The notes beneath the pieces were generated by a model. The model had not been told where the DNA came from. It worked only from the letters and a program-made list of their open reading frames with translations, and made no database searches. A stretch of 64,000 bases of DNA from Nitrospira sp. GTDB lineage: Bacteria > Nitrospirota > Nitrospiria > Nitrospirales > Nitrospiraceae. The stretch spans positions 1-64,000 of the forward strand of contig JAFEBL010000032.1 of NCBI GenBank assembly GCA_018242665.1, given 5' to 3'. The position numbers were made by a program, and so were the translations under genes. This document shows, one piece after another, positions 50,097 to 58,606 of this stretch (position 1 is its first letter; every line of letters begins with the position of its first letter).

Positions 50097-51216
50097 CAGA
50101 TCCGTGGTTGGGGTACTGGGTGTGCTGCTGTGCCTGGGCGTGACAGGTTCGGCCTGGGCCGAGGGTCCGAAACAGGCCGCGCCCAAGTTGCCTATTGCTG
50201 TATCGGCCGAACGGCATCTGATCAACGTCCGGCAGCTCACGTTTGGGCGGCAAAATGCCGAGGCCTATTTTTCGTTCAGCGGCGACAAACTCATTTTCCA
50301 GTCCACCAACAATTGGATGAAAGACACGTTTGCCGCAGCGATGTATCCGGCCGACATTCCCCTGGGCTGCTATCAAATGTATGTGATGGATCTCGCGAGT
50401 GAAAAGATCCGGATGGTCAGCACCGGTTCCGGCACCACGACCTGCGGCTACTTTTTCCCCGGCGATCGGCGCGTGTTGTATTCCTCGACGCATTTGCGAG
50501 GGCCGAACTGCCCGCCGAAGCCGAAGCGTGACGGGGGGGCGTACCGCTGGGCGTTGGACGACTACGATCTGTTTTCTGTCAGGATCGATGGGCAGGACCC
50601 TCAGCGATTGACCAACACGCCGGGGTATGACGCGGAGGCCACGGTCTCTCCCAACGGAAAGACCATCGTCTGGACTTCCATGCGAGACGGGGATTTGGAT
50701 ATCTATGCCATGGATCTGGACGGGACCCATCCACGGCGGCTGACCCACGAAGTCGGGTACGACGGCGGGGCATTCTTTTCTCCCGATAGCAAACGGATTG
50801 TCTATCGCGCGCAGCACCCGAGCAATCAGGAAGAATTGGACCAATATAAGGGGCTCCTCGCTCAAAACTTGGTCGAACCAGGCCGGCTCGAAATCTTCAT
50901 CATGAATGCCGACGGGAACGGCAAACAGCAGGTCACAAACAATGGCGCGTCCAACTTCTCGCCCTACTTCCATCCCGATGGTCACCGCGTCATCTTTTCG
51001 TCGAACGTGGAAACCCGCAATGAGGGAGGGAGGCCGGAATTTCACCTCTATCTCGTCAATGAAGACGGAACCGGGTTGGAGCGGGTAAGCGTTGGCGGGA
51101 AGTTCAATAGCTTTCCGATGTTCTCGCCGGACGGCAAGCATCTCGTCTGGGTCTCCGATCGGAACGCGAAAGAGCCGGGAGAGTTCAACGTGTTTCTTGC
51201 TGACTGGGTGCCATGA
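50083..51216 (+). CDS. Exported TolB/WD40-like beta-propeller protein
   Basis: A 377-residue secreted protein starting with GTG inside the preceding gene. Signal peptide VVGVLGVLLCLGVTGSAWA, cleavage near residue 26. Several PD40-type blades are visible, e.g. EAYFSFSGDKLIFQST, EATVSPNGKTIVWTSMRDGDLDIYAMDLDGTHPRRLT, GAFFSPDSKRIVYRA, FSPYFHPDGHRVIFSS and FPMFSPDGKHLVWVSDRN. Probably periplasmic, with a six-bladed propeller used for binding. It is coupled to the M1-like gene upstream and to PAP2 downstream (4-nt overlap). It is not TolB itself: no N-terminal TolB domain or tol genes are present. Confidence 0.88.
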   Translation: MTNRNRSVVGVLGVLLCLGVTGSAWAEGPKQAAPKLPIAVSAERHLINVRQLTFGRQNAEAYFSFSGDKLIFQSTNNWMKDTFAAAMYPADIPLGCYQMYVMDLASEKIRMVSTGSGTTTCGYFFPGDRRVLYSSTHLRGPNCPPKPKRDGGAYRWALDDYDLFSVRIDGQDPQRLTNTPGYDAEATVSPNGKTIVWTSMRDGDLDIYAMDLDGTHPRRLTHEVGYDGGAFFSPDSKRIVYRAQHPSNQEELDQYKGLLAQNLVEPGRLEIFIMNADGNGKQQVTNNGASNFSPYFHPDGHRVIFSSNVETRNEGGRPEFHLYLVNEDGTGLERVSVGGKFNSFPMFSPDGKHLVWVSDRNAKEPGEFNVFLADWVP

Positions 51217-52292
51217 GTGGATCGGGCGACGGGCAGGTTGCGTCGCCCTCGATGCAGCCTGCACCAGCACCGGATTGCCCGCCGGCTCCGGCCGTCATTT
51301 GTTCGATGCTCGTGCTGCTCGGATCGTTCGCCGCACTCTTCGATATCGATGTTCCCATCCTCCGCTTCCTCCGGTCTCACGACCTGTCGGCGCTCCAGCG
51401 GCTCGGCGATCTCGGTGAAAAGCTCGGTAACGGCGGGACTCTCATCACCATCAGCCTTCTCCTCCTAGCCACGGGCTTTATGCTCAAACGGCAGGCATGG
51501 GTGCGAGTGGCGTGGGACAGTCTGCTGGCGCATGGCGTGGTGGCCGTCGTGGTCAACAGTCTCAAACATATCATCGGCCGCCCACGGCCGCGTCTGACGC
51601 ATACAGGCGGGTGGCATTGGTGGCCATCGCTGGAGTCCGGACTAGATTCATTTCCTTCCGGCCATACCTCGGCGACGGTCGCCGTGGTGACGGTCCTGGC
51701 ACGGGCGCTGCCACGCCTGCGCTGGGTGCCGTTCGCACTAGCTGCGTGGGTCGGTGCCAGCCGAATCTGGAGAGGCTCTCATTTTCCCGGCGATGTGGTC
51801 GGCGGGATGGCCTTGGGGTTTCTTGTGGGCTCCGTCTTCAATGCGCCCCTGCGCGCGTGGAAACAGTCCTGCGCACAGGCGCTGGTTCGTGTCGCGCCGA
51901 TGGTCCTCTTACTCACGGGATGTTTTTGGGTTCTCACGCATCGGATTGTAGATCCTGTGATCGATACCGTACTGGCCTCGGTGGGAGTGATGCTCATGGT
52001 GGGTGGCTGGTTGAGCCGTCTGAGATGGAGCCAGCAGGCCACCGTTGTCGGCGGGGGGAACACAGGTAAGGGGTCGAATGCGTTCGTGTGGTTGGGGCTG
52101 GGAGTAGCCACCGGTGCGCCGGTTGTCATCGGGTTGACGGTGCTGCTCTGTGTGGCGCAATGGACCAGCGCTGGGATGGCCTGCGCGTCGTCGGCAGCAC
52201 GATCGTGGTGGGGCGAAGCGGTCTACGGACTGGGTCTGTTCGCGGCAGTGGCGGTAGTGCAATTGCTCAAAGGGCTGGTGCCATTGCAGTAA
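51213..52292 (+). CDS. PAP2-family membrane phosphatase
   Basis: A 359-residue integral membrane phosphatase. The three acid-phosphatase signatures are in order: KHIIGRPRPRL (C1), PSGHTSATVA (C2, catalytic His) and SRIWRGSHFPGDVVGG (C3, nucleophile His). At least six transmembrane helices; after the PAP2 domain an extra C-terminal membrane part of about 130 residues. Likely acts on a lipid phosphate such as undecaprenyl pyrophosphate, phosphatidic acid or a lipid A phosphate. Third gene of the coupled trio; it converges on the GT39 gene with a 4-bp gap. Confidence 0.93.
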   Translation: MSGSGDGQVASPSMQPAPAPDCPPAPAVICSMLVLLGSFAALFDIDVPILRFLRSHDLSALQRLGDLGEKLGNGGTLITISLLLLATGFMLKRQAWVRVAWDSLLAHGVVAVVVNSLKHIIGRPRPRLTHTGGWHWWPSLESGLDSFPSGHTSATVAVVTVLARALPRLRWVPFALAAWVGASRIWRGSHFPGDVVGGMALGFLVGSVFNAPLRAWKQSCAQALVRVAPMVLLLTGCFWVLTHRIVDPVIDTVLASVGVMLMVGGWLSRLRWSQQATVVGGGNTGKGSNAFVWLGLGVATGAPVVIGLTVLLCVAQWTSAGMACASSAARSWWGEAVYGLGLFAAVAVVQLLKGLVPLQ

Positions 52293-52296
52293 TCGG

Positions 52297-54096
52297 TCAA
52301 TGGCCGGGGATACGCATCGCGGGCTTTTCCGCCTCTTCCGGTACATTGATCAGCGATTGACTGGCGAGCAGGATGTAGCCATAGCGTTCCAGCATGACCG
52401 GGTAGTCCATGGTTTCAAACGGCAATCGATTGCGCATGGCTGCGGGCAGCAGAATCATGGTGCGCCCCGGTTGAGTCAGGTAGGGCTTGATGTTGGCCTC
52501 CTCACCTTTCGGGACGACGATGGCTTTGCGCTTGGCATAGAAGACGAGTGAGGGTCGTGGTTGCCCGTACAGAATCAGCCGGTCGTTGGGACCAAGGTTC
52601 AGTCCTGCGACTTCCGCCAACTGTTGCGGCGGCTCGATGACAAAATAGTCGATCAATGGAAACGTCAATTGCATGGCGGCCAGCACCACGAGGGCCAGTG
52701 ACCCGCCAGCGGCCCAGAAGGCCGCCGGTCGCCGCGTGTCGCTGAGTCCGAAATAGGCGACCAGCCCCATTCCCACCAAAAAAATTGAGGCGACAGTGTA
52801 GGGCCCGGGTCCCAGCGTCACCTGTCCCGCCAGGGGAAACTCCTCCACTAGTTTGCCGGCGAATTTGGCATAGAGCGGAGGCAGCAGCGCAAATGCCAGC
52901 GCCAGGAGCGAGCCCACGGCGGTGATCGTATGGATTGCGGCCCGTAGGCCCGGCGCAGCCTGATCGGTCACGCATCGATTCCAATAACAAGCCGCCAGAA
53001 TGGCCGCCGCAGGAAACAGCGGCCCGATATAGTGCGGCAAGCGGGTTGAGGAGAGACTAAAAAAGATGAATCCTCCCAAGACCCACGCCGCGGCAAACCA
53101 TTCGAGCGCACCGGGCGAGGAGGAGGCCTCGACCTCGGCGGGCTGATTAGGCGGCAGGGTTTCGGTGCGTCTCGCCTCACGCCAGCTTCGATAACTCTGG
53201 TACCAGGCAAAGGGAAGCAGGCCACTCCAAGGGAAAAATCCGAGCAGGAAGACGGGAATATAAAACAGCAGCGTGCCGCCATGCCCTTCCATCGCTCCGA
53301 AGAAACGGCCGACCGTGTCCCCCCTGGCGGACGTTGTATAGCGTTCCCCGTGAAGGTTCAGCATCATGAGATACCAAGGGAGCGCGAGGGCGATGAAAAG
53401 CATGAGGCCGGGAATAAGATGCCCGCGACGACGGAACAACGGCCAGGAACGGGTCAGCCATAGGTAGAGACCCACCGCCAGCAAGGGAATGAGGAAACCA
53501 ATGGGGCCTTTGGTCAATGTCGCCAGCGCCATGCCGATATAGAACAGCCAAATGAAGCGCCGCCCTCCTCCTTCTCCATGTAGACCCAGCCAAAAGCCAT
53601 AGAGCGAGAGGGTGGTGAAGAAGATCAGCACGCTGTCGGTCAAGGCCATGCGACTGAGGCCGATGATCTCAAGGTTGAGCAACAGCATCGCCGCAGCAAA
53701 CAGGCCGACGACTCGTCCCCGGCACCGTGTCACAAACCAATATTGCAGCAGAATCAACCCAAGCCCGAACAGTGCCGACGGGAATCGCGCGGCGAATTCG
53801 TTCACGCCGAAGAGATGATAGGAACCAGTCATCAGCCAATACACAAAGACCGGCTTGGCGAAGCGCGGTTCGTAGTTGAATGTCGGGCTGATATAGTTGC
53901 CCGTTTCAAACATTTCCCGACCCGCTTCGGCGTTTCGTCCTTCGTCTCGGTCGGTCAAGCCGAGGGAGCCGAGTCCGACGAAGAACAGCACGGCGGCCAT
54001 CGACAGCAGGAGTAGCAGCGCAAGCGGCTGGACGGAACGATCGATCGGCGCAGACGGCTGCAAGGGGGGGAGCTCTCCGTTCATCTGTGGTTCCAT
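52297..54096 (-). CDS. GT39-family (ArnT/PMT-like) membrane glycosyltransferase
   Basis: A 599-residue polytopic inner-membrane protein with about 12 transmembrane helices. The GT39/GT83 catalytic loop is GSLGLTDRDEGRNAEAGREM with Asp49, Asp51 and Glu52; FAKPVFVYWLM follows as in ArnT. A periplasmic C-terminal domain (about residues 470-590) closes the protein. Such enzymes move a sugar from a polyprenyl phosphate to lipid A or proteins on the periplasmic face. It overlaps the LAB_N gene by 1 nt and is the last gene of the GT2-LAB_N-GT39 trio, which suggests that its donor is made by the GT2 enzyme. Confidence 0.9.
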   Translation of the reverse strand: MEPQMNGELPPLQPSAPIDRSVQPLALLLLLSMAAVLFFVGLGSLGLTDRDEGRNAEAGREMFETGNYISPTFNYEPRFAKPVFVYWLMTGSYHLFGVNEFAARFPSALFGLGLILLQYWFVTRCRGRVVGLFAAAMLLLNLEIIGLSRMALTDSVLIFFTTLSLYGFWLGLHGEGGGRRFIWLFYIGMALATLTKGPIGFLIPLLAVGLYLWLTRSWPLFRRRGHLIPGLMLFIALALPWYLMMLNLHGERYTTSARGDTVGRFFGAMEGHGGTLLFYIPVFLLGFFPWSGLLPFAWYQSYRSWREARRTETLPPNQPAEVEASSSPGALEWFAAAWVLGGFIFFSLSSTRLPHYIGPLFPAAAILAACYWNRCVTDQAAPGLRAAIHTITAVGSLLALAFALLPPLYAKFAGKLVEEFPLAGQVTLGPGPYTVASIFLVGMGLVAYFGLSDTRRPAAFWAAGGSLALVVLAAMQLTFPLIDYFVIEPPQQLAEVAGLNLGPNDRLILYGQPRPSLVFYAKRKAIVVPKGEEANIKPYLTQPGRTMILLPAAMRNRLPFETMDYPVMLERYGYILLASQSLINVPEEAEKPAMRIPGH

Positions 54097-54395
54097 TACG
54101 ATTTGGTTGCCGGAGAGGCTGTGCCGGAATCGGCAGAGTTCGGGCGGTGAATGAGCATGAGATTACGAACGTACACGATGCTCCCGATGCTCTGACCGGC
54201 AATGAACACCGGGTCCAGCCGGTAGATCGCGTAGGCCAGGGTGATCAATCCGCCGATCAAGCTCATATACCAGAAGGCGGTGGGCACCCGGCTTTCGGCA
54301 TGGCGTTCGGAGGCAATCCATTGGACCACCCAGCGCATGAAGAAGATTCCCTGTCCGAGGAATCCGATAATGATCCAAATGGTCTCGGTGGTCAT
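54096..54395 (-). CDS. LAB_N-domain small membrane protein
   Basis: A 99-residue integral membrane protein with three hydrophobic helices. It is a free-standing lipid-A-biosynthesis N-terminal (LAB_N) domain: IWIIIGFLGQGIFFMRWVVQW, ERHAESRVPTAFWYMSLIGG, GQSIGSIVYVRNLMLIHR. ATG 54395 overlaps the GT2 gene by 4 nt; an upstream start is less likely because it would lengthen that overlap. The LAB_N fold is, as I recall, related to the MtN3/PQ-loop transporters, so a flippase-like role for the lipid-linked sugar is possible by analogy with ArnE/ArnF. Confidence 0.87.
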   Translation of the reverse strand: MTTETIWIIIGFLGQGIFFMRWVVQWIASERHAESRVPTAFWYMSLIGGLITLAYAIYRLDPVFIAGQSIGSIVYVRNLMLIHRPNSADSGTASPATKS

Positions 54396-55153
54396 AGGCG
54401 TGCGGGGGCTGGAGGCGTTCCGGTCGCGCGGTAACGGTAACGCAGGCAACGGTGCTGCATCCATCGCACAGCCACCAGGTCATAGAGACCCTTGAAGAGA
54501 CGGTTGCCCACACCGTATTTCGAGGTTCCACGTGTGCGTGGATAATGGCGCACCGGCACCTCGGTGACGGTAAACCCGTGCATCAAGGCAAGGGCGGGGA
54601 AGAATCGGTGCATACCCTCGAACAATTGCAATTTGTCGACCACCGCCCGTCGAAACAGCTTCAGTGAGCAGCCAGTGTCGTGCACCCGGTCGCCGGTGAC
54701 GGCGCTGCGTACGCGGTTGGCGATCCGGGAGGAAATCTTTCGTGTCAGATTGTCATGCCGGTCCTTACGCCAGCCGCAGACCAGATCAAACTCTTTGATC
54801 AAAGGGAGCAGCGTGGCGATATCCGCCGGGTCGTTCTGTAAATCGCCGTCGATCGTCATCACCAGGTCCCCGGTCGATTGCTTGAACCCCGCATCGAAGG
54901 CCGCCGACTGGCCATAGTTGCGATCGAAGTGAAAGACCTTGATTGTGGCGTATTGGGCGGCCAAGCCATCCAGCACCTCTGAGCTGCCGTCCGAACTGCC
55001 GTCGTCGATGAAGATCAATTCGAACGGGGCCGATCGCGATTCCTCGCGGCTATCCAGCACCTTCACGAGTTGCTCTGTCAGGGGTACCAGATTCTCTCGC
55101 TCATCCTTGATGGGGATGACAACGGAAGCCCATGGGCGGGTGGCAACAGTCAT
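54392..55153 (-). CDS. GT2-family glycosyltransferase (polyprenyl-phosphate sugar synthase-like)
   Basis: A 253-residue GT-A enzyme resembling dolichyl-phosphate mannose synthase and ArnC. Nucleotide-binding motif DDGSSDGS at 50-57 and DGDLQNDP (DxD region) at 102-109; HDTGCSLKLFRR and PVRHYPRTRGTSKYG follow the family pattern. Unlike ArnC it has no C-terminal transmembrane pair, so it should be a cytosolic or peripheral enzyme. It likely makes a polyprenyl-phosphate sugar used by the GT39 enzyme two genes downstream. Confidence 0.92.
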   Translation of the reverse strand: MTVATRPWASVVIPIKDERENLVPLTEQLVKVLDSREESRSAPFELIFIDDGSSDGSSEVLDGLAAQYATIKVFHFDRNYGQSAAFDAGFKQSTGDLVMTIDGDLQNDPADIATLLPLIKEFDLVCGWRKDRHDNLTRKISSRIANRVRSAVTGDRVHDTGCSLKLFRRAVVDKLQLFEGMHRFFPALALMHGFTVTEVPVRHYPRTRGTSKYGVGNRLFKGLYDLVAVRWMQHRCLRYRYRATGTPPAPARL

Positions 55154-55455
55154 GGAGCGGGATCAGTTCCTTCAGGCAGCCGTTTACGCATGGACACGGC
55201 GCACATTCTACAAAAGGATTGTTGGATGGTCAAACCTCCCTCACCGAGAATCGCGAGTTGCAGGCTCTGCCGAACCCGACAGTCATGCTGGTGCTGTATG
55301 AGGGCGAGCGCGGTGGGTTCACGATCACCTCAGTGTGAGCCAGAACATATTTTGGTGCTGGATGATCGACTCATGCAGGACTAGGGCGCTGATGAACCAC
55401 CTGTTCAGTTTGGGAATAGAGCGCGAGAGAAGTTGGGGGACGGGGGCGGCTCGGT
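55154..55455. other. 302-bp gap upstream of the GT2 operon
   Basis: Apart from the GT2 promoter I see nothing in it: the small open frames have no family features or ribosome-binding sites, and no terminator with a T-run follows the exported protein gene at 55456. Confidence 0.5.
55205..55233 (-). promoter_or_regulatory. Sigma70-type promoter of the GT2-LAB_N-GT39 operon
   Basis: On the minus strand: TTGACC (55233-55228), 17-bp spacer, TAGAAT (55210-55205), each 5 of 6 to consensus, 52 nt before the GT2 start. Confidence 0.68.
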
Positions 55456-56031
55456 TTACCGACCTGTGGGAGAAGGGTTCGATTCCGCTGCTGCCATGAT
55501 CGTGAAGCGCATGGTGCCCATCAAGCTCATGTCATTGACCTGTTCACCGGCATGAATTTCCACTTTGTAGCGGCCTGGCTTCCAGCCGCCTTCCGCGGGA
55601 AGCAAGGTCAGGTATCCGGTTTGGTCCTCCAGCGCGATGTACATCGCATCTTCCGCCACAACCGGCTGCGCCGCCGTTCCCGCTTCCGGCTCGGGATAAC
55701 AGCGGCTGAACACTTGAAACGACTGGTAGTGCTGGTGCAGCTCAAAGACGATGAAAATCGGCTTCGCGCCGGCGGGGAACCGTTCCGTTGGTGTGACGGG
55801 AACGATTTCATGGGTTCGTTGAAAGCCGATCTCCTCATCGAACCCTTCGGCAAGGACAATGCGGCGAAACATTCCCTCGGGGGGGGCGTCGAAATTGTAC
55901 GGGGTGACGGTTTCGGTGCGATTTTGGAAACCGGGAATCGGAACATTGCGGGTCAGCGGAAGATCTTCGGCCCCAAGCGGGGAGTTGTAGAGAACAACGA
56001 TAAGACAGACCGCCAGGCCTCGCTCCCGCAT
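55456..56031 (-). CDS. Exported protein of unknown function
   Basis: A 191-residue protein I do not recognise. From ATG 56031 it begins MRERGLAVCLIVVLYNSPLG with a probable signal peptide cleaved near GAEDL (about residue 21). The mature part appears all-beta: HEIVPVTPTERFPAGAKPIFIVFEL, DAMYIALEDQTGYLTLLPAEGGWKPGRYKVEIHAGEQVND, MGTMRFTIMA; the end resembles a small Ig-like or DUF-type sandwich. No ribosome-binding site precedes the ATG, but a promoter sits so close that the mRNA may be leaderless. It diverges from the methyltransferase gene. Confidence 0.8.
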   Translation of the reverse strand: MRERGLAVCLIVVLYNSPLGAEDLPLTRNVPIPGFQNRTETVTPYNFDAPPEGMFRRIVLAEGFDEEIGFQRTHEIVPVTPTERFPAGAKPIFIVFELHQHYQSFQVFSRCYPEPEAGTAAQPVVAEDAMYIALEDQTGYLTLLPAEGGWKPGRYKVEIHAGEQVNDMSLMGTMRFTIMAAAESNPSPTGR

Positions 56032-56037
56032 GCCGTC

Positions 56038-56067
56038 TTGGTACACCCGCCTCGGCCGGCCTGTCAA
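56038..56067 (-). promoter_or_regulatory. Candidate promoter for the exported protein, possibly leaderless
   Basis: On the minus strand: TTGACA (56067-56062), 18-bp spacer, TACCAA (56043-56038). Transcription would begin at or next to the ATG at 56031, and no Shine-Dalgarno is visible there. The -10 is a 3 of 6 match. Confidence 0.45.
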
Positions 56068-56196: not shown

Positions 56197-57657
56197 ATGG
56201 AACAGCACCTGATGACGCAGGTCGAGGATCCCGACGCGTTACCGCAACCGATCGGGGAGTACAAGCCGGTGAATTACTGGCAGGCGCATATCAACACTCT
56301 GTTCTATCAGCTGCGCGGCGAGCAGCAACGAAGTTTCTATCAGACCTTCGCCTCTGCCGATTATCGATTGGCGCATGCATTGGCGGTGGATTATTTCGAA
56401 CAGGTCGTCAAACGTGACAAGAAAGCTGGAGCACAGTCTTCTGCGTCCGCCGAGACTGCTTCCCGGCCAGCGTTGACTGTCATGGAGTGGGGCCCCGGTA
56501 ACGGCAACCTCGCGGCCTGTTTCCTCGGCCATCTACAGCGTCTGGACAAGGCCGGCCAGGTCTATCCCCGCGTGCGATATGTGCTGGTCGATTCCCATGC
56601 TCCCGCGTTGGAGGGGGCATGCACGCACCCCGATCTGGTACCGCATCTGTCCAAGGTCGAGTCCCTCTGTGCCGATGTCGAGGACATGGCCAGCATCGCC
56701 GACGGCACGGTCGACCGGATCATCTGTAATGAGATGTGGAATGAGTTGGCGACCAAGCTCATTGCGAAGAAGGGCGGGGAGTATGAAGAAGAACATCTCC
56801 GGCCGAATCTCAATGAGCATAAGGCGGCCGCGATTGCCGACTGGTCCGGATTCGTCCGTGCCTTCGACGCCAAGGACGTCGAAAAACTGAAACAGTTCCC
56901 GCCGTTTCTGGATGATCTGATCTGGGAGCGTGAGTATCACAAGGTAGACTGGAAAGATGTTCCGTATCGAAAGACGATCATCGAATTCATGAAGGCGATC
57001 GACGACGAGGTGTTGGTGCCGGTGAATCTCGGTGCCTGTGCCTCAATCAAGGAAGCCAAACGGGTGCTGGCGCCGGATGCCGTGGGGTTCAGCAGTTTCG
57101 ATGCCGGGACGGCGGATATGCAGGTGCTCAACGATCCCGAGAAGCCTTGTTATGGCCAGTTCGGCGGGCAATACAGTTTTATGGTGAACCTGGCCCTGAT
57201 CCAAGCGGTCGCCAAGCACCTGGGTATTGCGGCGACCACCGTGGAAACACAACGGGAATTCGTGGGAAGCCGGCTCGGGACGAACGTCATGACGCTGATG
57301 GATGTGCTGGCCTGCCATCCGATGGTCGGCTCAAAGGTTCCGGCCTGGGAGTTGGATCGCCTGACCGTGCAGACCATTCGCACGTTGAATGACATCTATG
57401 AAAGCCCGTATCAGCGCAAGATCGATTTCCCGCTCCGTCACGAAATGCCCGCGGAGGAGCGTGAATCAGCGCAGGGCATCCTGCTTTCCCTGAAGCCAAA
57501 CGGCATCCCGGATACCATTGCCTATGTCACCGAAGAGGAATTGAATCAGGCGCAAGCTGAATTAGAGACCTTGGGGTATGAGCGTGAGGCGGTGATGATG
57601 GCCCTTGGCGCGCCGCCAAGTCCCGTCGAGTACTACCATTTCGCATTTCGACCCTAG
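56197..57657 (+). CDS. Class I SAM-dependent methyltransferase (MidA/PF02636-like)
   Basis: A 486-residue cytoplasmic protein. The SAM-binding glycine motif is MEWGPGNGNLAACFLGHL near residue 95, followed by an acidic end of strand 2 (YVLVDSHAPALEGA) and motif IV-like DRIICNEMWNELATKL. This order resembles the SAM-dependent MidA family (in mitochondria NDUFAF7 dimethylates an arginine of complex I), but the match is partial. The C-terminal half (about 330-486) is unknown: GQYSFMVNLALIQAVAKHLG, then a segment with many acidic residues. GGGGGGCAG precedes the ATG. The substrate cannot be told from context. Confidence 0.72.
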   Translation: MEQHLMTQVEDPDALPQPIGEYKPVNYWQAHINTLFYQLRGEQQRSFYQTFASADYRLAHALAVDYFEQVVKRDKKAGAQSSASAETASRPALTVMEWGPGNGNLAACFLGHLQRLDKAGQVYPRVRYVLVDSHAPALEGACTHPDLVPHLSKVESLCADVEDMASIADGTVDRIICNEMWNELATKLIAKKGGEYEEEHLRPNLNEHKAAAIADWSGFVRAFDAKDVEKLKQFPPFLDDLIWEREYHKVDWKDVPYRKTIIEFMKAIDDEVLVPVNLGACASIKEAKRVLAPDAVGFSSFDAGTADMQVLNDPEKPCYGQFGGQYSFMVNLALIQAVAKHLGIAATTVETQREFVGSRLGTNVMTLMDVLACHPMVGSKVPAWELDRLTVQTIRTLNDIYESPYQRKIDFPLRHEMPAEERESAQGILLSLKPNGIPDTIAYVTEEELNQAQAELETLGYEREAVMMALGAPPSPVEYYHFAFRP

Positions 57658-57928: not shown

Positions 57929-58213
57929 ATGTTTGGTTCGTTCGGCTGGATGGAGCTGCTGCTGATTCTTATCATTGTCCTGATCATCTTCGGAGCCGGG
58001 AAAATTCCCCAGCTTGGTGAGGGATTAGGCAAGGCCATCAAAGGGTTCAAGAAGTCGGTTCACGAAGCGGATGCCATCGATGTGACGGCGACCGAGGCGG
58101 AACCAGCTGCGGCTCCACCCACGGCACAGATCCAGCAACCAGGACAGCCGGCCACGCCGCCGCCTGCGCAGCAGGCCGCCGCGGCTCCACCGCCACGGAC
58201 GACGCAGGGATAA
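57929..58213 (+). CDS. tatA: Twin-arginine translocase subunit TatA/E
   Basis: TatA oligomers form the protein-conducting part of the Tat pathway for folded proteins. The 94-residue product has a single N-terminal helix ([23 protein letters not shown]), the hinge [20 protein letters not shown] and an amphipathic helix, followed by a long Pro/Ala/Gln-rich tail (about residues 55-94) rather than the usual charged one. AAGGAG lies upstream. A second TatA-type gene follows after 93 bp; no tatC is nearby. Confidence 0.94.
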
Positions 58214-58306: not shown

Positions 58307-58606
58307 ATGTTCGGTCTTGGCGCTGGAGAAATTCTCATCATCCTGGTCATTGCGTTCCTGTTGTTCGGGCCCAAGCAATTGCCCGAAATCGGGCGCCAAG
58401 TGGGCAAGGCTGTCAAGGGATTCAAGGAGACGGCGGATGACCTGAAGAAGACAGTTGAGCCTGAGCTCAACATGATTCAACAGGAAATGAAGATGGTGGA
58501 GCAGGATTTCGAATCGTCGATGAAGGAAGCGGAAGAACAGATTAACCATGCAACATCGGGCGTAGAGCACGGGGCAGAGGAATCAGGTTTGCCCAAGCAG
58601 GCCTAA
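58307..58606 (+). CDS. Second TatA/TatB-type translocase subunit
   Basis: A 99-residue TatA/B-family protein: helix GAGEILIILVIAFLLFGPKQLPEIGRQVGKAVKGFKETADDL with the conserved polar Glu8 and FGPKQLP hinge, then a longer charged coiled-coil-like helix (about 45-85). The Glu8 and long acidic tail lean toward TatB, while FGPKQLPEIGR is shared with TatA/E; the two cannot be separated reliably by eye. It probably pairs with the TatA at 57929 and a TatC encoded elsewhere. Confidence 0.9.
   Translation: MFGLGAGEILIILVIAFLLFGPKQLPEIGRQVGKAVKGFKETADDLKKTVEPELNMIQQEMKMVEQDFESSMKEAEEQINHATSGVEHGAEESGLPKQA

Follow-up and report, generated by a model that had tools for sequence, protein, structure and literature searches.

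A LAB_N protein encoded between ArnC-type and ArnT-like glycosyltransferases in Nitrospira: a possible half-SWEET component of a lipid-linked sugar transfer system

Introduction

What might a free-standing LAB_N protein do when its gene lies between those of two glycosyltransferases? The question is raised by three genes in a stretch of 64,000 nt from Nitrospira sp. (GCA_018242665.1, contig JAFEBL010000032.1, forward-strand positions 1-64,000; hereafter the window), which encode a GT2 family glycosyltransferase, a small LAB_N protein and a GT39 family glycosyltransferase. The grouping is confirmed to be real, conserved, and more general than could be seen from the window alone. As to function, the reading preferred here, given a probability of about one half, is that the operon would be a variant of the three-component systems, one that attaches a sugar to an acceptor in the periplasm: LAB_N would dock the GT2 at the membrane and translocate the lipid-linked sugar, and the GT39 would transfer it. 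The features concerned are:

54392..55153, minus strand: GT2, 253 amino acids (aa); catalytic domain of an ArnC-type polyprenyl-phosphate glycosyltransferase, C-terminal membrane tail absent (Pfam PF00535, 99.6 bits)
54096..54395, minus strand: LAB_N, 99 aa; membrane protein with three helices, of half-SWEET/PQ-loop type; candidate anchor or translocase (PF07578, 109.5 bits)
52297..54096, minus strand: GT39, 599 aa; ArnT-like GT-C glycosyltransferase (PF02366 and PF13231 above cut-off)
55205..55233, minus strand: sigma-70-like promoter match 5' of GT2; TTGACC-17-TAGAAT, 10 of 12 consensus bases

The gene trio and its parallels

An earlier note on this DNA, made from its letters alone, described three overlapping minus-strand genes behind a good promoter, encoding a cytosolic GT2, a three-helix LAB_N protein, and an ArnT-like GT39. 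The layout is borne out by the coordinates, by overlaps of 4 bp between GT2 and LAB_N (ATGA) and 1 bp between LAB_N and GT39 (TAATG), and by the Pfam families, all above cut-off (Glycos_transf_2 99.6, LAB_N 109.5, PMT 81 bits); such overlaps suggest that translation of the trio is probably coupled. The protein descriptions hold as well: no transmembrane segment was found in the GT2, a predicted model of LAB_N has the three helices, and the sole PDB match of the GT39 is ArnT (5ezm, E 8.6e-32). In that alignment the Asp residues of the GT39 stretches DEGR and LTDSVL, which we take to be catalytic, fall on Asp in ArnT. The promoter is weaker than had been claimed: the site at 55233-55205 is the sole match in the stretch scanned, but shuffled sequence averages 1.1 such sites, and neither terminator nor promoter patterns in the region exceed those in shuffles.

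The same note drew a parallel with ArnC-ArnE/F-ArnT, which stands: among solved structures, the GT2 is closest to ArnC and the GT39 to ArnT. Both systems have an ArnC-like GT2 and an ArnT-like GT39 with a small membrane protein encoded alongside; in the window, however, the small protein is LAB_N rather than SMR-type and the GT2 has no membrane tail. No Arn sugar genes were found in the neighborhood of the trio that was examined. A second parallel is with GtrA-GtrB-Gtr*, also composed of a polyprenyl-phosphate GT2, a small membrane protein, and a GT-C transferase (PMC11127046; papers are cited by PMC number). Here too the small proteins differ, LAB_N not being GtrA either by Pfam or by profile comparison. 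Of the elements that define a three-component system, the trio has a GT2 of the ArnC/GtrB/DPMS kind and a GT-C transferase; the position of the flippase is taken by a small membrane protein that is a candidate for that role. Bordetella LgmA-D, considered as a possible precedent, was dropped; lgmD is reported to be non-essential (PMC4993483), and no statement of the family of LgmD was found.

Conservation of the gene order

PF07578 is present in 42 of 148 Nitrospirota genomes. When wider stretches around these loci are considered, a homologous GT2 is nearby in 42/42 and a GT39/PMT gene in 41/42. With one LAB_N and only six PMT_2 matches in the 4.06 Mb host genome, chance falls far short of explaining this grouping. 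In 30 Nitrospirota loci taken with 1.5 kb flanks and searched by BLAST with the window's own proteins, all three genes were found in 25. The order is not entirely fixed, with LAB_N-PAP2-GT39-GT2 in three Nitrospirota genomes and GT2-PAP2-GT39-LAB_N-GT39 in one.

A broader scan took one genome per species; the best 80 of 578 confirmed loci by similarity comprise 27 from Nitrospirota and 53 from elsewhere. A single search pattern was used, which tandem LAB_N proteins can escape, and a Pfam check recovered GT39-type genes that the search model had under-scored (for example in locus L068). Within Nitrospirota, GT2 is directly upstream of LAB_N in 26/27 loci and GT39 directly downstream in 27/27. 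Among the other 53, GT2 is directly upstream in 45 and present anywhere in the locus in 48, and GT39 is directly downstream in 27 and present anywhere in 35. Their hosts, many of which are metagenome bins, include Alpha- and Gammaproteobacteria, Fusobacteriota, Bacteroidota, Halanaerobium, Planctomycetes, Acidobacteriota, and others. A survey for the order GT2-LAB_N-GT39, proposed in the earlier note, thus finds co-occurrence both in Nitrospirota and in other phyla, and the thought that LAB_N might not accompany these glycosyltransferases fails.

A LAB_N search of viral contigs found three stretches. The LAB_N model also matches in the archaeon Methanocaldococcus jannaschii and in Bacteroides ihuae, above cut-off in only one of these two.

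LAB_N and the SWEET/PQ-loop superfamily

An AlphaFold (AF2) model of LAB_N from 53 sequences has helices at residues 3-32, 39-58, and 62-83, with a mean predicted local distance difference test score (pLDDT) of 90.9 and values above 95 in the helices. Counted per protein, lysine plus arginine come to 2.77 in loop 1 and 1.36 in loop 2, with 1.91 at the C-terminus and 0.08 at the N-terminus, a charge distribution that suggests an N-out, C-in topology. Twenty alignment positions show the same residue in every row, R21, Q25, W26, E30, D61, Q68, R77, and N78 among them.

Several sequence comparisons point to one superfamily. The top four PDB sequences in a LAB_N profile search are SemiSWEET-type chains (E 0.0064-0.054). 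At E<=0.05, MtN3_slv (the SWEET family) is matched by 15 of 53 LAB_N proteins, other second Pfam families by no more than two each, and GtrA controls match it in 0/13 cases; the window's LAB_N by itself has no MtN3_slv match. Tandem LAB_N proteins with a linker occur in Hymenobacter (222 aa) and Phocaeicola (209 aa), the latter above the MtN3_slv cut-off (30.0 vs. 23.7 bits), and this duplication in Bacteroidota resembles that from SemiSWEET to SWEET. In a profile-profile comparison, 65 columns of LAB_N align with SemiSWEET in the expected register, at E 0.071 and low probability from shallow profiles, which is not counted as proof; the corresponding control with GtrA aligns four columns. No Pfam match to GtrA (PF04138) was found in the window protein or in 53 LAB_N proteins, nor are SMR or EamA families among the matches of the latter. 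By these comparisons, LAB_N is assigned as a three-helix unit of the SWEET/PQ-loop superfamily.

It is a distinctive member. The three-helix unit, the tandem form, and the MtN3_slv link are shared with SemiSWEET, SWEET, and PQ-loop proteins (MPDU1 and Any1 included), but LAB_N has other invariant residues, VQ in place of PQ in the window protein, and a fixed partnership with a GT2. Kinship of LAB_N with MPDU1 is known in print through the superfamily, from a study that calls the LAB_N annotation misleading (PMC3281891).

The GT2 and its missing membrane tail

The nearest solved structures to the GT2 are ArnC (E 1.9e-38), then GtrB sll0501 and DPMS; the alignment with ArnC ends at residue 228 of the 253, beyond which ArnC continues. 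Among 109 homologues at E<=1e-30 in the 148 Nitrospirota genomes (the truncated L245 was not scored for a tail), those linked to LAB_N lack a hydrophobic tail without exception (42/42; 235-264 aa), whereas 65 of 66 complete unlinked proteins have one, the exception (L289) being a distant sequence. PF03706, annotated as “flippase-like,” is near 43/67 unlinked GT2s vs. 0/42 linked ones (30 of the 42 with only 1.5 kb flanks), and near LAB_N in 0/89 loci (L031-L119).

A tree of GT2 catalytic domains puts this dichotomy in proportion. Frames open at a contig end, those scoring <90 bits, and those with <180 residues were excluded, and near-copies in the same state were thinned, reducing 172 rows to 119. 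The tree splits in two with support 100. One group, of 52 rows, has 51 tailed members, the untailed one being L289, and a single member with LAB_N (L080); in the other, all 67 rows are tail-less and 65 have LAB_N. Only two changes are needed on the tree for the tail, and four for LAB_N. The dichotomy, at first read as strong independent evidence, was dropped as such, since a single ancient split cannot be used as repeated evidence.

Other occupants of the LAB_N position

An Alteromonas plasmid has the order GT2-VTT/DedA-GT39, with a GT2 that falls inside the tail-less clade, nested beside LAB_N-linked GT2s. The same order is found in Glaciecola, and in Salinimonas the VTT gene overlaps GT39. 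Beside other GT39/GT2 genes are GtrA (Cupriavidus, Sulfitobacter), SMR (Variovorax), and the PF03706 flippase-like protein (Sinorhizobium). The families found in place of LAB_N include accepted or proposed flippases of polyprenyl phosphate or polyprenyl-phosphate sugars: in three-component systems, flipping has been proposed for GtrA- and SMR-type proteins, with direct evidence for it lacking according to a 2024 paper (PMC11127046), and the DedA protein PA4029 is reported to be a C55-P flippase (PMC12893004). No GtrA gene was found in the host genome itself.

Proposed function and alternatives

In the scheme preferred here, based on homology, the tail-less ArnC-type GT2 would load a sugar onto polyprenyl phosphate at the cytoplasmic face of the membrane. 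LAB_N, as a dimer of half-SWEET units, would dock the soluble GT2 at the membrane and pass the lipid-linked sugar to the outer face, where the ArnT-like GT39 would transfer it to an acceptor. The superfamily offers precedents for the translocation step in its handling of lipids: the PQ-loop protein Any1 scrambles phospholipid in vitro (PMC11893163), and in mammals every known reaction that depends on dolichol-phosphate monosaccharides requires MPDU1 (PMC3281891). A bolder claim, to be held tentatively, is that LAB_N, with the half-SWEET unit as its scaffold (as a dimer, or in tandem in Bacteroidota), makes up a new class of translocases for lipid-linked sugars, uniting the roles of the ArnC/GtrB tail and the Gtr/Arn flippase and forming a bacterial counterpart to MPDU1.

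Several observations weigh against this scheme. The PQ motif of helix 1 is not kept: the window protein has V24-Q25, and while Q25 is invariant in 53/53 sequences the proline is absent. The Trp and Asn that are invariant in aligned SemiSWEETs are likewise missing from LAB_N. Foldseek with the LAB_N monomer, a short query, gave no match at E<=0.001, and in VIA-align, where SWEET scored Z 6.3 and KDELR Z 6.0 (root-mean-square deviation 1.8 over 78 residues), neither score exceeds those of unrelated helical chains; the comparison with PQ-loop transporters suggested in the earlier note was favorable by sequence (PDB profile search, MtN3_slv, tandem form), with no significant match in the monomer fold search. 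Outside Nitrospirota, 26/53 loci lack a GT39 directly after LAB_N, and the Gram-positive Paenibacillus has dehydrogenase-epimerase-GT2-LAB_N with no GT39 within the neighborhood viewed. A single evolutionary event underlies the association of LAB_N with tail-less GT2s. Even that association has an exception: in Azospirillum thermophilum (L294, 3462-5945; one replicon examined) GT39 comes straight after a tail-less GT2, at the place where A. ramasamyi (L033) has LAB_N, which is a counter-example to strict dependence of a tail-less GT2 on a neighboring LAB_N. Finally, LAB_N is fused in Chlamydiaceae to the glycosyltransferase LpxB (PMC3937554), an enzyme of the cytosolic face, and such a fusion would fit an anchor better than a flippase; a lipid-presenting role would also fit.

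The main rival to translocation, rather unlikely as the whole account, is that LAB_N is only the membrane anchor and activator of the GT2, as DPM2/DPM3 are for human DPM1, with another protein moving the lipid-linked sugar. An anchor has to be considered because the GT2 lacks a membrane tail, and the tail counts in Nitrospirota agree with it. Human DPM1 is without membrane helices and needs DPM3 (PMC5526996), so that type II DPMS (DPM1-DPM2-DPM3), like GT2-LAB_N, combines a tail-less catalytic GT2 with a separate small membrane subunit; the likeness is one of anatomy only, LAB_N differing in its three helices and SWEET kinship. The greater frequency of the GT2-LAB_N pair than of the LAB_N-GT39 pair outside Nitrospirota (45/53 vs. 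27/53) and the LpxB fusion also favor an anchor. Its difficulties are that LAB_N belongs to a transporter superfamily, that VTT/DedA, a lipid-flippase family, takes its place in three Alteromonadales genera, that the flippase-like PF03706 gene is absent near all 89 LAB_N loci, and that the A. thermophilum GT2 has neither a tail nor a neighboring LAB_N. On balance, translocation by LAB_N appears somewhat more likely than anchoring alone.

It is also conceivable, if improbable, that LAB_N, instead of exporting the loaded carrier, brings spent polyprenyl phosphate back to the cytoplasmic face, an activity reported for DedA and DUF368 translocases. VTT/DedA proteins occupy the same position, and DedA proteins are known for the return step (PMC12893004), but the tightest partner of LAB_N is a cytosolic GT2, and GtrA and SMR, better known in that position, have been put forward as exporters (PMC11127046).

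That LAB_N is simply a SemiSWEET carrying free sugar, its place in the operon being metabolic only, would agree with its superfamily and is nonetheless very improbable: a separate ordinary SemiSWEET is encoded in the same genome, LAB_N keeps its own invariant set (R21, Q25, W26, E30, R77, N78, and others) rather than that of SemiSWEETs, and its fixed partner is a lipid-sugar synthase. Equally hard to credit is a role in lipid A synthesis itself, as the Pfam name implies; the LpxB fusion in Chlamydiaceae (PMC3937554), to whose model LAB_N is similar, speaks for it, but Gram-positive Paenibacillus carries GT2-LAB_N, only 42/148 Nitrospirota genomes have LAB_N at all, and the superfamily study calls the annotation misleading (PMC3281891). 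The narrower idea that LAB_N is needed only for lipid A acylation gets no support, since LpxB is a glycosyltransferase and Paenibacillus has the GT2-LAB_N pair.

For the three-gene lipid-linked sugar transfer system of the earlier note, then, the parallel and the position of LAB_N stand; the flippase role is plausible on the present analysis, and the anchor alternative and an adjoining phosphatase gene (below) had been missed. A literature search, which covered the top-ranked papers in part and left subscription journals mostly outside, found none that connects LAB_N with the transfer of lipid-linked sugars, so that absence is not proven. At ~90 aa LAB_N is very small; it is also widespread, and in most cases accompanies the enzyme making its likely substrate, which would make it an unusually clean test case for the flipping of polyprenyl-phosphate monosaccharides. 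If LAB_N does flip lipid-linked sugars, this would point to a definite function for MPDU1, a PQ-loop protein of humans, and the misleading database name “lipid A biosynthesis N-terminal” would be corrected.

Neighboring genes

One further gene is part of the locus:

51213..52292, plus strand: PAP2-family phosphatase (PF01569, 80 bits); convergent with GT39, the two stop codons separated by 4 bases

The gene is present at 26/27 Nitrospirota loci of the broad scan. Its best PDB match is LpxE (6ebu, E 3.8e-7), with other PAP2 enzymes close behind, and its nearest NCBIfam model is SepP, far below that model's cut-off. In two Nitrospirota lacking LAB_N, PAP2 and PMT (GT39-type) domains are fused by Pfam (L221, 212-2377; L230, 418-2436), followed by a tailed GT2 and with PF03706 adjacent, which suggests that phosphatase and transferase act together. 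GT39-PAP2-GT2-LAB_N form one run in two Legionella-type genomes (L085 and L103), so that PAP2 joins the LAB_N system outside Nitrospirota too. In the least certain step of the scheme, the phosphatase would probably make the acceptor ready, for instance by taking a phosphate off lipid A, or else handle carrier phosphates. Given this neighbor, dephosphorylated lipid A is a reasonable guess for the acceptor in Gram-negative hosts, though one that cannot be general.

Genes for UDP-glucose dehydrogenase and epimerase-like proteins adjoin some LAB_N loci, and hint at uronic acids there. Next to the trio of the window, no gene of this kind was found, and NCBIfam could not name the epimerase, so no sugar is claimed.

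Three other regions of the window lie beyond the trio. Upstream of GT2 on the same strand, an open reading frame (ORF) at 55456-56067 (minus) has a signal-peptide-like start and no Pfam match. On the plus strand, a 486-aa ORF at 56197-57657 has a sub-threshold Methyltransf_28 match (22 vs. 23.3 bits), and two adjacent small ORFs at 57929-58213 and 58307-58606 are TatA/TatB-like by eye.

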